This document shows positions 10,560-29,432 of a stretch of 64,000 nucleotides of DNA, one piece after another. The stretch is from the NCBI RefSeq assembly GCF_019443505.1, contig NZ_CP080377.1, forward strand, positions 6,200,001 through 6,264,000. The letters run 5' to 3'. The notes below the pieces were generated by a model. It saw only the letters and a list, made by a program, of their open reading frames with translations. It did not search any database and was not told where the DNA came from. Numbering within the stretch: position 1 is the first letter of the stretch; each line of letters starts with the position of its first letter. The translations under genes were made by a program, and so were the position numbers. The stretch is from Janthinobacterium sp. PAMC25594 (GTDB lineage: Bacteria > Pseudomonadota > Gammaproteobacteria > Burkholderiales > Burkholderiaceae_D).

Positions 10560-10594
10560 TGGCCCGAAGGCCTATCTACGATAAAATCGGGCCA
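10560..10594. promoter_or_regulatory. Inverted repeat over the start codon of the GlxA-type regulator gene
   Basis: Perfect 8-bp arms TGGCCCGA (10560-10567) and TCGGGCCA (10587-10594) separated by 19 bases. The last base of the right arm is the A of the start codon. It could be an operator, or an RNA hairpin that closes the translation start. It lies in the 112-bp divergent region with the hydrolase gene. Confidence 0.5.
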
Positions 10595-11586
10595 TGCCTA
10601 CTATTCCTTCTTCTTCCCCCTTGAGCGTGGCCGTGATCGCCTTCGACGGCATGATGCCATTTCACTTGTCCGTGCCTTGCCTCGTGTTTGGCGCCCAGAC
10701 GGACGAGGCCGACCTGCCGCCTTTCCACGTGCGCGTCTGTGCGGCCGATCCCGCGCCCTTGCGCACGGCGGCCGGCTTTTCCATCACGCCCGAGTGTGGA
10801 CTGGAAGGGCTGGAGGGCGCCGATATCGTCATCATGCCGGCCTGGCACGACGATTGCCGCGATGCCGCGCCGTCCCTGGTCGCGGCGCTGCAGGCGACCA
10901 GCGGGCGCGGCGCGCGCATGGTGGGCCTGTGCCTGGGCGCGTTTCCCCTGGCGCAGGCGGGCTTGTTGGATGGCAAGCGCGCCGCCACGCACTGGGGCAT
11001 GGCCGAGCGCCTCGCGGCCCGCTATCCGAAGGTCAGGGTGGACCGGGAAGTGCTGTACGTGGACGATGGCGGCGTGCTGACGTCGGCCGGCGTGGCGGCC
11101 GGTCTCGATTGCTGCCTGTACCTGCTGCGCCAGCTGGCCGGCGCCGAGGTGGCCAACCGCGTGGCGCGCCGGCTGCTGGTGGCGCCGCACCGCCAGGGCG
11201 GACAGGCGCAGTTCATCGAGCGCCCGCTGCCCGTGTCCGGCAGCGAAGGGCGCTTTGCCGAGGTGCTGGCTGGCGTGACGGCCAGGCTGGACCAGGCACA
11301 CAGCATCGACGCGCTGGCCGAACGGGCCGCCATGAGCCGGCGCAATTTTACGCGCCACTTCCGCCAGGCCATGGGCACGTCGTTCAAGCAATGGCTGCTG
11401 AACCAGCGTCTTGCGCATGCGCAAGGCATGCTGGAAAAAAGCGCGGCCTCGATCGATGTTGTGGCGCAAGAGGCCGGTTTCGGCACGGCCCTGTCGCTGC
11501 GCCAGCATTTCCGCGCCAGCTTGCAGACGTCGCCGTCGGCGTACCGCAAGCTGTTCCGCGAGAAACAGGCGTGCGTGGAGCGCTGA
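10594..11586 (+). CDS. GlxA family transcriptional regulator (DJ-1/PfpI plus AraC HTH)
   Basis: 330-residue two-domain regulator. Residues 8-190 form a DJ-1/PfpI-like class-I amidotransferase domain with the elbow cysteine C113 (VGLCLGAFPLA). Residues 225-325 hold the AraC double helix-turn-helix (MSRRNFTRHFRQAMG ... VAQEAGFGTALSLRQHFR). GlxA-type proteins sense small nitrogenous metabolites and activate nearby catabolic genes. It is divergent from the isochorismatase-like gene, its likely target. The start codon lies within an inverted repeat and lacks a good SD. Confidence 0.88.
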   Translation: MPTIPSSSPLSVAVIAFDGMMPFHLSVPCLVFGAQTDEADLPPFHVRVCAADPAPLRTAAGFSITPECGLEGLEGADIVIMPAWHDDCRDAAPSLVAALQATSGRGARMVGLCLGAFPLAQAGLLDGKRAATHWGMAERLAARYPKVRVDREVLYVDDGGVLTSAGVAAGLDCCLYLLRQLAGAEVANRVARRLLVAPHRQGGQAQFIERPLPVSGSEGRFAEVLAGVTARLDQAHSIDALAERAAMSRRNFTRHFRQAMGTSFKQWLLNQRLAHAQGMLEKSAASIDVVAQEAGFGTALSLRQHFRASLQTSPSAYRKLFREKQACVER

Positions 11587-25107: not shown

Positions 25108-25250
25108 TGAAACAATTTGAACAGGTACAACAATCATGGCGGAAACGACTGGCATGGCTGGCCGGCATCTGGCTGGCCAGCGTGGCCACCCTGGGCCTGG
25201 CCGCGTGGGTGATGCGCCTGCTGATGCGGGCGGCGGGGATGGGCAGCTGA
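25107..25250 (+). CDS. DUF2474 small membrane subunit of the bd oxidase
   Basis: 47-residue protein (MKQFEQVQQSWRKRLAW...) with a charged N-terminus and one membrane helix (WLAGIWLASVATLGLAAWV). DUF2474 proteins sit at the end of cio operons and are the counterpart of CydX, a small subunit that stabilises the oxidase. Its ATG overlaps the cydB stop and its own stop overlaps the next gene, so it is translationally coupled on both sides. It is easily missed because of its size. Confidence 0.8.
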   Translation: MKQFEQVQQSWRKRLAWLAGIWLASVATLGLAAWVMRLLMRAAGMGS

Positions 25251-25789
25251 TGGCGCAGGTATCGCAGGTATCGGGCATCCGCTGCGAGGTCGGTGGCCAA
25301 CGGCACCCGCTGGCCTTCCTCGGCTGCCGCGAACTCAACTATGGCCAGCACAGCGCGCTGCCGCTGCACCCGTTCCGCCTGAGCGTGCCGGAAGCGGCGC
25401 TGGCGGGCCTGCTCGACGAACCGTTCAACAGTTTTATCCAGACTTGCCGCGAAGACGACTTGCAGGACGAGGAAAGCGACTTGCCCGAACTCAAGGAAGC
25501 GGGCTACCCCGACATCACGGCCATGCTGGCGGGGCGCCGGCCGCTGCTGGTCGACATGTTGGTCGACTTCATGATCGGCGACCTGCTGGCCGCCATCGGG
25601 CGCGCCAGCGGCTACCTGCCACCGCGCGCGCGCCATTGGGGCGACGTCGAGGCGGCCGATGGCCGCGCGTATTTCACCATCAATGAAGTGCGGAAAGTGA
25701 CTTTTGCCGATGGCCAGGCCCTGTTCGAAGGGCAGGGATATTATGGCGCGTACGTCATCTGGCTGACGCACGGCTACGTGCGCAAATAG
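25250..25789 (+). CDS. Hypothetical protein coupled to the bd oxidase genes
   Basis: 179-residue soluble protein (MAQVSQVSGIRCEVGGQRHP...). There is no signal peptide or membrane segment. It has a run of acidic residues (DDLQDEESDLPELKEAG) and a C-terminus ending in YGAYVIWLTHGYVRK. I do not recognise the family. It starts at 25250 by TGATG overlap with the DUF2474 gene; a longer frame begins at 25136 inside that gene and is rejected. Cotranscription with cydAB is likely but a role in the oxidase is not shown. Confidence 0.6.
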   Translation: MAQVSQVSGIRCEVGGQRHPLAFLGCRELNYGQHSALPLHPFRLSVPEAALAGLLDEPFNSFIQTCREDDLQDEESDLPELKEAGYPDITAMLAGRRPLLVDMLVDFMIGDLLAAIGRASGYLPPRARHWGDVEAADGRAYFTINEVRKVTFADGQALFEGQGYYGAYVIWLTHGYVRK

Positions 25790-25793
25790 GGGC

Positions 25794-25824
25794 TTGACCT
25801 TCCTCATGTGGGAAGGTTTATAGT
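25794..25824 (+). promoter_or_regulatory. CueR/MerR-type copper promoter
   Basis: A -35 TTGACC (25794-25799) and a -10 TATAGT (25819-25824) are 19 bp apart, the overlong spacing that MerR-family activators correct. Between them lies a perfect dyad ACCTTCC-N7-GGAAGGT (25797-25803, 25811-25817), which matches the CueR/CopR operator. The start codon of the first gene is at 25831, only six bases after the -10. No cueR gene is in the window. Confidence 0.9.
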
Positions 25825-25830
25825 TGTGCC

Positions 25831-26241
25831 ATGAACCGCGCCTTTTTCCGCTCACTCGCCCGCTCGCTGCTCTGGCTGCTGGCCGTCTCGCTGCCCTTGC
25901 AGGGCTTTGCGTCGGCCATGCGCAGCTGCTGCGTGGACGAGCTGGCGGCAGCGGTCACCGTTGTGGCAGCGCAGGCGCCCCAGTGCCATGACATGGCCGA
26001 CATGCGGATGCAGGAGCAGCCGATGACCATGGCCATGGACGATGGCGGCGCCACCCAGCATGGTCACGATTGCAGCAACCATGGCGCATGTACCGTGGGC
26101 GCCACGGCGCCGCCCGGCATGCCCGCCTTGCACGCCTTGACCCTGCGCGCGCCGCCTCCGGCGCTGGCGCCCGACTCCCTGTTCGCCGGGCATATCCCGC
26201 CTGGTCCCGAACGTCCCCCGAGAAGCACGCACTCCGCCTGA
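25831..26241 (+). CDS. Periplasmic Cys/His/Met-rich copper operon protein
   Basis: 136-residue protein with a signal peptide (RSLLWLLAVSLPLQGFASA). The mature part begins with a CC pair (MRSCCVDE), then many His, Met and Cys residues (CHDMADMRMQEQPM, HGHDCSNHGAC) and a proline-rich tail. It is the first gene behind the CueR promoter. The composition suggests Cu(I) or Cu(II) binding in the periplasm. No known fold is recognised. No SD can exist if the transcript starts where the promoter predicts. Confidence 0.7.
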   Translation: MNRAFFRSLARSLLWLLAVSLPLQGFASAMRSCCVDELAAAVTVVAAQAPQCHDMADMRMQEQPMTMAMDDGGATQHGHDCSNHGACTVGATAPPGMPALHALTLRAPPPALAPDSLFAGHIPPGPERPPRSTHSA

Positions 26242-26354
26242 CCGCCCGTTGAACCTGGCGGTGCGGCCGTCGCACGTCCTTGCACGTTGCAGCGGCCGCG
26301 CCAGCGTTCCAGTCGCGCACCTGCCGCGCTATCCCCTGTCAATCAAGGAATACC

Positions 26355-26693
26355 ATGAAACACCTGTTCAGCTTCGTGCTGGCTGTACTGCCGCTGGCCG
26401 CCGCAGCGCAGTCCCCGTCCGCCCCGCAAGAGGCGCAAGCATCCGTGCCGGCCACCACCTATCGCTCCGCCTTCGCCGGCTACCGTCCCGCCGCCGAGGA
26501 AAACGCCACGCCCGACCAGGCCTGGCGCGCCGTCAACGACAAAGTCGGCAAGGCCGGCGGCCACATGGGCATGATGAAGATGGAAGGCCACAAGATGGAG
26601 GGCCATACCATGCCGATGCATAAGCCCGGTCCCAAGCCTGATGCCAAACCGGCCGCCCAGCCGTCCCCGCAACACCAGCATGAAGGACATTGA
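26355..26693 (+). CDS. Small periplasmic His/Met-rich copper-associated protein
   Basis: 112-residue secreted protein: signal peptide (MKHLFSFVLAVLPLAAAAQ), then a stretch TTYRSAFAGYRPAAEENA often seen before metal-efflux genes, and a C-terminal half loaded with His and Met (HMGMMKMEGHKMEGH, then HQHEGH at the end). AAGGAA precedes the ATG at 26355. It ends one base before the outer-membrane factor gene. It probably buffers or hands over copper in the periplasm; this is inferred from composition and context. Confidence 0.72.
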   Translation: MKHLFSFVLAVLPLAAAAQSPSAPQEAQASVPATTYRSAFAGYRPAAEENATPDQAWRAVNDKVGKAGGHMGMMKMEGHKMEGHTMPMHKPGPKPDAKPAAQPSPQHQHEGH

Positions 26694-26694
26694 G

Positions 26695-28050
26695 ATGGCC
26701 CGTTTCACAAAATCAACTTGCCTCACGCCGCTGGCGCTGGCGGCCGTCCTGCTGCTCAGTGGCTGCGCCAGTTTCAGCGAGGATGGCGGCATGCGGACGG
26801 TGTCCACGCTGGCCGACGTGCGCACGGGAGCCCCCGCGGCATTGACGGACCAGGGCGGCGAGGAAAAACTGGCCTCTTTGCTGGCCCAGCCCCTGGACGC
26901 CGACAGCGCCGTGCGCATCGCCCTGATGAACAACCACGGCATGAAAGTGGCGCTGGCCGAACTGGGCGCGTCCGAGGCGGACCTGGTGCAGGCGGGGCGC
27001 TTGCGCAATCCCGGCCTGTCGTTCGGCCGCTCGCACGGCAGCCATGGCAATGAAATCGACCGCGGCGTCAGCTTCGACCTGGCGGGACTACTCACCATGC
27101 CGCTGCGCGTCAACATCGAGCGGGGCCGTTTCGAGCAAGCCAAGCTGCAGGCCGCCAGCAGTGCCGTGCAACTGGCGCTTGAGACGCGCCGCGCGTATTT
27201 CAATGCGGTTGCCGCCGTGCAGACGGAACAGTTCATGCAGCGGGCGCTGCTGTCGGCCGAGGCGGGCGCCGAACTGGCCACGCGCTTGCGGCAGGCGGGC
27301 AACTGGAGCCGCCTCGACCAGGCGCGCCAGCAAGTGTTTTACGCGGACGCCGTCGGCGACCTGGCCCGCGCGCGGCACCAGGCATTGGTGACGCGTGAGC
27401 ACCTGACGCGCTTGCTGGGCCTGTGGGGCAAGCAGGCCAGCTTTACTTTACCGTCGCGTCTGCCCGACTTGCCGGCCCAGGCGGTGGAAGCGGGCAATAT
27501 CGAGGCGCAGGCGATGGAGCAGCGCCTCGACGTGCAAAGAGCGAAACTCGACGCGCATGCCACGGCCGACGCGCTGGGCCTGAGCAAGGTGACGGGTTTT
27601 ATTAACGTGCTCGACGTCGGCTACACCAACAAGAGCAGCGAGGCGCCGCGCGAAAACGGCTATGAAGTGTCGCTGGAATTGCCGCTGTTCGACTGGGGCG
27701 CGGCGCGCAATGCCAGGGCGCAAGCGCTGTACGAGCAGTCGCTGCAGCGCACGGCGGGCACGGCGGTGCGGGCCCGCTCGGAAGTGCGCGAGGCGTATTC
27801 GAGCTACCGCACGGCCTACGACCTGGCGCGCCACTACCGCGATGAAGTCGTGCCGCTACGCAAGACGATTTCGCATGAAGTATTGCTGCGTTACAACGGC
27901 ATGCTGGCCAGCGTGTTCGAGCTGCTGGCCGACGCGCGCGAGCAAGTCGCCAGCGTGAACAGCGCCATCGAGACCCAGCGCGATTTCTGGATCGCGCAAA
28001 CTGAGCTGCAAGGCGCCATCAATGGCAGCGGTCCTGCCAACAAGGAATAA
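26695..28050 (+). CDS. TolC-family outer membrane efflux lipoprotein of the copper operon
   Basis: 451-residue protein with a lipobox LLLSGC (Cys24) and the two repeated coiled-coil halves of outer-membrane efflux factors (for example LQAASSAVQLALETRRAYFN, REAYSSYRTAYDLARHYRD). CusC-like in role. The start at 26695 has SD GAAGGA and follows the previous stop by one base. Unusually, no inner-membrane pump or adaptor gene is in the operon; the factor is next to a multicopper oxidase instead. Confidence 0.85.
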   Translation: MARFTKSTCLTPLALAAVLLLSGCASFSEDGGMRTVSTLADVRTGAPAALTDQGGEEKLASLLAQPLDADSAVRIALMNNHGMKVALAELGASEADLVQAGRLRNPGLSFGRSHGSHGNEIDRGVSFDLAGLLTMPLRVNIERGRFEQAKLQAASSAVQLALETRRAYFNAVAAVQTEQFMQRALLSAEAGAELATRLRQAGNWSRLDQARQQVFYADAVGDLARARHQALVTREHLTRLLGLWGKQASFTLPSRLPDLPAQAVEAGNIEAQAMEQRLDVQRAKLDAHATADALGLSKVTGFINVLDVGYTNKSSEAPRENGYEVSLELPLFDWGAARNARAQALYEQSLQRTAGTAVRARSEVREAYSSYRTAYDLARHYRDEVVPLRKTISHEVLLRYNGMLASVFELLADAREQVASVNSAIETQRDFWIAQTELQGAINGSGPANKE

Positions 28051-28052
28051 TG

Positions 28053-29432
28053 ATGATTACACGTAGAAACTTTTTCATGAATGCGGGCGCCGTCGCCCTG
28101 AGTGCCGCCGCGGTGAGCCGCGTGGGGGCGGCGTCATTGCCGGAAGCCGTCAGCATGGCCGGTGCGGAAACGAAAGCGCCGCCACCGCCGCCGAACGGCC
28201 GGCCGTATAACCCCGTCGTCACCCTGAATGGCTGGTCCTTGCCCTGGCGCATGAACAACAACGTCAAGGAATTCCACCTGGTGGCCGAACCCGTCGTGCG
28301 CGAACTGGCGCCCGGCATGCAAGCGAACCTGTGGGGCTACAACGGCCAGTCGCCCGGTCCCACCATCGAAGTGGTGGAGGGTGACAGGGTGCGCATCTTT
28401 GTCACGAATAAATTGCCGGAACACACGAGCGTGCACTGGCATGGCCAGCGTTTGCCCAACGGCATGGATGGCGTCACGGGCCTGACCCAGCCAGGTATTC
28501 CTCCCGGCAAGACCTTCGTGTACGAGTTTGTTGCCAGGCGCCCCGGCACCTTCATGTATCACCCGCATGCCGATGAAATGACGCAGATGGCCATGGGCAT
28601 GATGGGGTTCTGGGTGACGCACCCGAAAGACCCGCATTTCATGAAGGTGGACCGCGATTTCGTCTTCCTGCTCAGCAACTACGACATCGATCCCGGCAGC
28701 TACACGCCGAAGATCATGACCATGACGGATTTTAATCTGTTCACTTTCAACAGCCGCGTCTTCCCCGGCATCGACCCGATGGTCGTGCGCCAGGGCGACA
28801 AGGTGCGCGTGCGCGTGGGCAACCTGACCATGACGAACCACCCGATCCATATGCATGGCCATGAATTCGAGGTGACGGGCACGGATGGCGGCTGGACGCG
28901 CCCCGAATCGCGCTGGCCCGAAGTGACGACCGATATCGCCGTGGGGCAGATGCGCGCCGTGGAATTCACGGCCACGGACCTCGGCGACTGGGCTTTCCAC
29001 TGCCACAAATCGCACCATACGATGAATGCCATGGGGCATGACGTACCCACCATGATCGGCGTCGACCACCAGGGCGTGGCGGCGAAGATCAACCAGCTCG
29101 TACCCGGCTACATGGTGATGGGCGAACGGGGCATGGCCGACATGGGCGAGATGCAGATGCCGATTCCCGACAACACCTTGCCGATGATGGCCGGCGACGG
29201 CCCGTTCGGCGCCATCGGCATGGGCGGCATGTTTACCACGGTGAAGGTGCGCAAGGAGCAGAAAGCGGGCGATTACCGCGATCCGGGCTGGTACAAGCAC
29301 CCGGCCGGCAGCGTGGCGTATGAATGGACGGGCGCCTTGCCGGAAGCGGTGCGCCGCGCCGGCCCGCCGGCGCCGGCGGCCAAGGGAGGGGTCGAGATGA
29401 CGGTGCGCAAGCCGCTCAGGCACGATCATTAA
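28053..29432 (+). CDS. Tat-exported multicopper oxidase (CopA/CueO-like)
   Basis: 459-residue multicopper oxidase. A twin-arginine signal (ITRRNFF) leads the protein. The copper-ligand clusters are all present: SVHWHGQ and MYHPHADEM in the first cupredoxin region, HPIHMHGHEF and FHCHKSHH in the last. Met-rich stretches near the end (GMADMGEMQMP) resemble the Cu(I)-binding inserts of CueO. It oxidises Cu(I) to less toxic Cu(II) in the periplasm. ATG at 28053 is preferred for spacing to AAGGA at 28042-28046; an overlapping ATG at 28050 adds one Met. Confidence 0.9.
   Translation: MITRRNFFMNAGAVALSAAAVSRVGAASLPEAVSMAGAETKAPPPPPNGRPYNPVVTLNGWSLPWRMNNNVKEFHLVAEPVVRELAPGMQANLWGYNGQSPGPTIEVVEGDRVRIFVTNKLPEHTSVHWHGQRLPNGMDGVTGLTQPGIPPGKTFVYEFVARRPGTFMYHPHADEMTQMAMGMMGFWVTHPKDPHFMKVDRDFVFLLSNYDIDPGSYTPKIMTMTDFNLFTFNSRVFPGIDPMVVRQGDKVRVRVGNLTMTNHPIHMHGHEFEVTGTDGGWTRPESRWPEVTTDIAVGQMRAVEFTATDLGDWAFHCHKSHHTMNAMGHDVPTMIGVDHQGVAAKINQLVPGYMVMGERGMADMGEMQMPIPDNTLPMMAGDGPFGAIGMGGMFTTVKVRKEQKAGDYRDPGWYKHPAGSVAYEWTGALPEAVRRAGPPAPAAKGGVEMTVRKPLRHDH

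Follow-up and report, generated by a model that had tools for sequence, protein, structure and literature searches.

Upstream of a short ORF (ORF1) in Janthinobacterium sp. PAMC25594, a CueR-type promoter stands so near the start codon that the locus raises a double question: where the copper-inducible mRNA begins, and whether the layout belongs to the promoter and its regulator or to the gene that they precede. The window (the whole 64-kb stretch of DNA that was analysed) was read together with loci from the genus, the family, the class and the phylum.

The promoter and the start codon of ORF1

Cytochrome bd oxidase genes (PF01654, PF02322; 22695-25107) lie directly upstream on the same strand as ORF1, and an ORF of that strand with no Pfam match (25136-25789) stops 4 nt ahead of the -35 element. 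The following elements were read between this ORF and ORF1.

25794..25799, + strand: -35 element TTGACC (sequence reading and motif scan)
25797..25817, + strand: CueR-type operator dyad ACCTTCC-TCATGTG-GGAAGGT in the 19-bp spacer, 0 mismatches
25800..25818, + strand: 19-bp spacer between -35 and -10
25819..25824, + strand: -10 element TATAGT (sequence reading)
25825..25830, + strand: 6-nt discriminator TGTGCC between -10 and ATG
25831, + strand: transcription start predicted from the geometry, at the A of the ORF1 ATG, within 1-2 nt

The 19-bp distance between -35 and -10, with a mismatch-free ACCTTCC/GGAAGGT dyad, is that of a CueR-type promoter. A search for TTGACCTTCC-N7-GGAAGGTTTA with up to three mismatches returned a single match in the 64-kb window, this site with 0 mismatches, and none in 100 shuffles (0/100). 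The perfect match and the 6-nt gap agree with the sequence-only reading, which had proposed a CueR-type promoter with its -10 ending at 25824 and an ATG at 25831. Transcription from sigma-70 promoters usually starts 7 nt past the -10, at a purine that follows a pyrimidine. From a -10 ending at 25824 this spacing leads to A25831 as the expected start and, judged by its sequence, the ORF1 mRNA should begin at the start codon, without a leader or a Shine-Dalgarno (SD) sequence.

No AGGA, GGAG or GAGG was found at -18 to -4 of the ORF1 ATG, confirming the earlier claim that there is no room for an SD; the layout is of the leaderless type, with an AUG start and the -10 standing in the position of an SD. 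The orthologues begin at the same Met ahead of a signal-peptide-like stretch, which supports the ATG at 25831, as had been argued from the signal peptide of ORF1 itself. The first 40 nt were less structured than shuffled sequences (mean z +1.72, 23 loci), and weak structure in this region is what initiation at a 5′-AUG would need.

Within Janthinobacterium, the -10 and the ATG were exactly 6 nt apart in 24 of the 27 loci with a CueR-linked gene, the present one included (24/27 is the fair count, the core of 24, or 22 in the fold test and 23 in the 5′-structure test, having been chosen post hoc), and 5, 28 and 40 nt apart in the remaining three. The 24 loci at 6 nt carried 10 distinct discriminator hexamers, and the C ahead of the A of the ATG was retained in 23 of them; the 16 fixed bases of the dyad promoter were retained in 27/27. 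This spacing, kept across 10 spacer sequences, together with the lack of an SD and the weak 5′ structure, upholds the leaderless geometry proposed from the single sequence. Shared ancestry accounts for part of the genus-wide agreement, since most orthologues are 77-93% identical. The 28- and 40-nt leaders, both devoid of an SD, were seen in Janthinobacterium L038 and L035 (also in the named strains K2E3 and S3T4). Counted by genome, on site-to-ATG distance and with the gene itself read in the fetched loci only, 34 of 40 Janthinobacterium genomes had a CueR-type site at most 30 nt from an ATG. The distance was 6 nt in 28 of them, 7 nt in one and 5 nt in another; the remaining four comprised two with 28 nt, one of the 40-nt type and one at a contig edge. 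Among 17 named Janthinobacterium loci, which overlap the 27, the distance was 6 nt in 14, 7 nt in one and 40 nt in two. By contrast, the gap between ORF1 and ORF2 was variable, 109-127 nt in 20 of the 24 core loci and 88-89 nt in two; of the other two, L036 gave a doubtful reading of 15 nt and L015 is cut by its contig.

The gene for CueR lies outside the window, about 0.57 Mb from the ORF1 promoter, and encodes the only protein of the genome above the TIGR02044 cut-off (184 bits vs 147.4). The 6.55-Mb genome contains two exact matches to TTGACCTT-N11-AAGGT, the ORF1 promoter and a site at 703538. The latter was rejected as a CueR promoter: CAAGGT occupies its -10 position, and the ORF behind it, which looks ferredoxin-like by eye, has AAGGAG ahead of its ATG.

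The E. coli copA promoter agrees with that of ORF1 in the 16 fixed bases, the -35, the type of dyad, the 19-bp spacer and the position of the -10, but its -10 lies 39 nt from the ATG with an AAGGAG in between, as compared with 6 nt and no SD at ORF1. A general rule of leaderless CueR promoters was rejected, since many of the listed sites carry 15-30 nt leaders with GGAG-type SDs. Among 16 further CueR sites read, one (L269, genus g40) precedes a CopL-like leader ORF with its ATG at 6 nt. At the CueR sites L266, L267 and L270 a second in-frame ATG has an SD. At L264 and L265 the CueR site precedes copA-type P-ATPase genes (by eye) with an ATG at 6 nt, no SD and the next in-frame ATG at 63 nt; a leaderless copA driven by CueR may exist in that genus.

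ORF1 and the operon downstream

The features read from the ORF1 start codon onwards were as follows.

25831..26241, + strand: ORF1, 136 aa, Cys/His/Met-rich, CopL/CutF-like, probable copper-sensing leader ORF (NF033807, homologues)
26212..26220, + strand: RPP codons (ERPPRSTHSA-stop), candidate arrest motif (homologue comparison)
26242..26261, + strand: small hairpin CCGCC-N10-GGCGG directly 3′ of the ORF1 stop (pairs kept in 22/22 loci)
26345..26350, + strand: SD AAGGAA of ORF2 (sequence reading)
26355..26693, + strand: ORF2, 112 aa, Met/His-rich, secreted (by eye), no family in profile searches
26695..28050, + strand: outer membrane efflux protein, TolC/OEP type, scanned from 26698 (PF02321, E 4.4e-26)
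28050..29432, + strand: multicopper oxidase, CopA-like (PF07732/PF07731/PF00394)

ORF1 heads an operon formed with ORF2, the TolC-type protein and the CopA-like multicopper oxidase, which matched TIGR01480 at E 2.3e-47, under the cut-off of that profile. The N-terminus of ORF1 is signal-peptide-like (by eye) and its C-terminus ends ...GHIPPGPERPPRSTHSA. Compared with the CopL profile NF033807 it gave E 4e-6 and 27.5 bits, under the curated cut-off of 40, which leaves it outside the family as curated. No Pfam match was obtained at E 0.1, DUF2946 (PF11162) included, and the protein contains C-x5-C in place of CXXC, so that both marks of the DUF2946/CruR group (Pfam match and CXXC) are missing; a search of solved structures returned no relative (best E 0.17). 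ORF1 does have the characters of the CutF/CopL-like proteins: predicted export (by eye), a C-terminal Pro-rich motif and a position as the first gene before copper genes. It is a probable copper-sensing leader ORF of this kind, a likeness missed by the sequence-only reading together with the recurrence of the layout at promoters other than CueR-type.

An RPP was present in the last 25 residues of 130/130 homologues, 3-6 residues before the stop in 120 of them and 1-9 residues overall, and the DNA at the RPP codons and the stop was near-invariant among the window and seven orthologues. The pairs of the post-stop hairpin were kept in 22/22 loci, with no covariation. The consensus fold of the whole ORF1-ORF2 region was not significant (z -0.65, 22 loci), and no claim of a structured switch in this gap is made; an Rfam search of 25700-26450 found nothing.

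The layout across the ORF1 family and beyond

Homologues of ORF1 were found in 165 of 294 genomes of the family. From about 150 listed rows, 130 loci were taken: 30 plus 100 picked by hand without knowledge of their promoters. Rows that were odd, partial or weak were skipped in some cases. In the leader ORFs, TAnnnT was scored upstream of every in-frame ATG lying at most 90 nt before the start of the match, and in the controls upstream of every one within the first 90 nt of the ORF; AGGA, GGAG and GAGG were taken as SD-like.

A TAnnnT ending 6-7 nt before an in-frame ATG was found in 93 of the 130 homologues (67/100 without Janthinobacterium), counts that are not independent since the sample includes paralogues and close relatives, and an SD-like motif was found in one (1/130). 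In the control genes the same layout was seen in 0/102 downstream genes, with an SD-like motif in 85/102, and in 2/44 genes of the window (ORF1 included), with an SD-like motif in 23/44. At least one locus with the layout occurred in 13 of 17 genera, the four genera represented by one row each having none, and its frequency ranged from 18/18 in genus g26 down to 5/17 in g18. The 37 homologues without it include 12 of the 17 from g18, and L098 and L127, at 7 nt by eye, escaped the rule and were scored as failures.

Outside the Janthinobacterium core (106 loci), TAnnnT ended 6, 7 and 8 nt before the ATG in 28, 41 and 10 loci, respectively. Every other distance up to 44 nt accounted for 0-5 loci, except 10 nt with 14, seven of which have an in-frame ATG 3 nt earlier. 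A stricter count with one ATG per locus, by which 8/130 had no ATG, placed the hexamer at 5-8 nt in 64 of 98 non-core loci, compared with 5.5 in shuffles. In 54 of these 98 the hexamer is held in an extended -10, TGnTAnnnT, and most non-core promoters are therefore not CueR-type. A CueR site 7 or 6 nt before the ATG was present at loci L098, L119 and L127 of genus g40 and at L269. A more distant CueR-like site (0-3 mismatches), with its end 45-62 nt before the ATG, was seen at 20 further loci; 13 of them also carry a proximal TAnnnT at 6-8 nt (L037, L061, L063, L086, L088, L090, L091, L092, L100, L104, L110, L114 and L130); some of these tandem loci have mismatches in the -10 of the distal site.

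CopL-family matches across the class, mostly under the cut-off, had the layout in 15/29 loci and an SD in 0/29; this count covers 30 of 45 listed matches (one without an ATG), with in-frame ATGs taken back to the previous stop and with other distances as the only background. A CopL match was found in 34 genomes of the class, only three of which pass the curated cut-off. DUF2946 genes across the phylum were sampled as 70 PF11162 matches (30 plus 40 hand-picked), of which 14 had no ATG by the rule and were left unscored. The layout was found in 14 of the 56 loci with an ATG, and an SD-like motif in 2/56; the statement that all DUF2946 genes are leaderless was accordingly rejected. At least three of the 14 unscored loci (L158, L159 and L161) show GGAGG before a GTG or the start of the frame.

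At the level of sequence, the leaderless layout follows the gene family, most strongly in its CopL-like members, and not the regulator CueR, since elsewhere the promoter is mostly of the extended -10 type. The trait is wider than a CueR operon.

Several single loci were also recorded. A -10-like hexamer precedes an in-frame ATG by 6 and 7 nt in two DUF2946 genes of the PAMC25594 genome, L143 (2858426) and L225 (1331755). A third gene of this kind in the same genome, L227 (831026-831373, minus strand), has no ATG by the rule used; there, an in-frame ATA that may be a leaderless non-ATG start follows the end of TGATACAAT after 6 nt. At L120 an in-frame ATA lies 7 nt after TATACT.

Proposed mechanism, precedents and alternatives

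The locus is probably best explained by a CueR-driven leaderless mRNA for a copper-sensing leader ORF that controls the genes downstream. When cytoplasmic Cu(I) rises, copper-bound CueR, encoded elsewhere, would activate the promoter at 25794-25824; RNA polymerase would start at A25831, giving an mRNA that begins with the ORF1 AUG, with no leader and no SD, and ribosomes, most likely 70S, would initiate directly on the emerging 5′ AUG. The product would be an exported Cys/His/Met-rich sensor peptide of the CopL/CutF-like kind whose nascent chain may meet copper near the ERPP codons, and pausing or its relief near the C-terminal ERPP would set the expression of the SD-led ORF2, the TolC-type gene and the multicopper oxidase. 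The leaderless start would be a widely kept feature of the sensor gene, for which other genera use an extended -10 promoter. The promoter, its spacing and the conservation of that spacing, the lack of an SD, the RPP motif, the CueR gene and the gene order can be read from the sequence. The first half of this scheme draws on such geometry and conservation; the second half, the nascent-chain readout, is proposed by analogy with CutF and CruR.

CueR promoters, leaderless mRNAs, leaderless leader ORFs and copper leader ORFs are each already known. The following comparisons refer to the available text of the papers cited. CutF and CruR are experimentally tested copper leader ORFs (PMC9973294, PMC9426467), and such ORFs act as protein-based metal switches at the RNA level. 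CutF of R. capsulatus and CopL of Xanthomonas resemble ORF1 in being short exported Cys proteins encoded first before a multicopper oxidase, and CutF also has the C-terminal Pro-rich motif (PMC9973294). ORF1 differs in having C-x5-C in place of CxxxC and a gap of 113 nt to ORF2. A stem-loop hiding the SD of the next gene would be expected of the CutF/CopL type; in the ORF1-ORF2 gap, with its consensus fold at z -0.65, only the small post-stop hairpin was seen. The word "leaderless" does not occur in PMC9973294.

CruR of B. pertussis, a DUF2946 protein, is encoded by a copper-responsive leader ORF that shares with ORF1 a C-terminal xPP and a long gap behind it, but it lowers an uptake operon with copper and contains CXXC and RAPP, the latter three residues before the end and needed for regulation (PMC9426467). 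Mapping placed the transcription start of cruR 45 bp ahead of its ORF, an exception to the leaderless layout; the nested primer used annealed just upstream of the start codon and was blind to a leaderless end (PMC9426467). For czcI of C. metallidurans a strong start lies 53 bp upstream, and for a gene named copL in that species a weak one 14 bp upstream (PMC9045368). The czcI2 gene of the same species, CutF-like without the Pro motif (PMC9973294), is named with merP among its leaderless transcripts, and 4.67% of the primary starts are leaderless (PMC7563307).

Leaderless genes of Burkholderiales, like ORF1, have the -10 in place of the SD (PMC4603805), and the available text of the papers on them draws no link to the copper leader-ORF family (PMC7563307, PMC4603805). 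The trpL of Sinorhizobium (PMC7298713) and the Cys-rich leader ORFs of mycobacteria (PMC4633059) are regulatory, or proposed regulatory, leader ORFs with an mRNA that starts at the start codon. They differ from ORF1 in amino-acid rather than copper control and, in the text available, no MerR-type promoter is mentioned for them; trpL encodes 14 aa and ORF1 136 (PMC7298713). In the literature searched, mostly without subscription journals and supplements, no paper joining leaderless initiation with CopL, CutF or CruR was found in the text available, and a review containing both sets of terms treats them apart in its available part (PMC10502375).

Other readings of the locus were weighed. The leaderless CueR transcript could be real while ORF1 does no more than encode a secreted protein that binds or chaperones copper; the tight spacing would then reflect promoter economy without regulatory meaning. 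This is unlikely: the Cys/His/Met-rich composition, the signal-peptide-like start, the NF033807 score below the cut-off and the non-significant intergenic fold would all suit such a protein, but not the RPP found 1-9 residues before the stop in 130/130 homologues, nor the same layout at other promoters while the downstream genes keep their SDs.

Clearly less probable is translation from a short-leader mRNA begun a few nt before the ATG, or from one read through from the upstream gene, with GGAAGG at 25811-25816 as a distant SD. This hexamer pairs with the anti-SD at -6.7 kcal/mol (-5.4 for that of ORF2), the upstream ORF of the same strand ends 4 nt before the -35, and in some homologues the -10 lies 8 or 10 nt from the ATG. 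However, GGAAGG lies 14 nt from the ORF1 ATG and is accounted for as part of the dyad; being upstream of the -10, it would be outside the CueR transcript. Moreover, the layout occurs without GGAAGG in other genera, and 23/24 loci at 6 nt retain the C ahead of the A that is usual at a start. Use of the dyad by another MerR-type regulator, or a response to another metal, is very improbable, since the 10 MerR helix-turn-helix matches of the genome, one of them CadR/PbrR-like, include a single one above the CueR cut-off, the dyad is of the E. coli copA type and a copper oxidase operon lies downstream.

A more tentative proposal, somewhat doubtful at present, gives leaderless initiation a function of its own in the many CopL/CutF/DUF2946-like nascent-peptide switches that would sense copper in Proteobacteria. 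In that case the 5′-AUG start would put one 70S ribosome directly behind RNA polymerase, and synthesis and readout of the sensor peptide would precede passage of the polymerase through the control region downstream. In Janthinobacterium a CueR promoter would have taken over this role, and a single metal would be sensed at two steps on one RNA, through CueR and through the nascent peptide. Were the family mostly leaderless, its lead ribosome would be loaded independently of an SD. This would affect how Rho gains access, how arrest works and how expression depends on stress, and primers placed upstream of the start codon would fail to map the real 5′ end. Natural versions of the CueR promoter-ORF1 unit with 5, 6, 7, 28 and 40 nt occur in the genus and would permit a direct test.

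A second gene with a leaderless-type layout was noted in the window at 10594-11586 (+ strand), where TAAAAT and the ATG of an AraC/DJ-1-type regulator are separated by the 6 nt CGGGCC.
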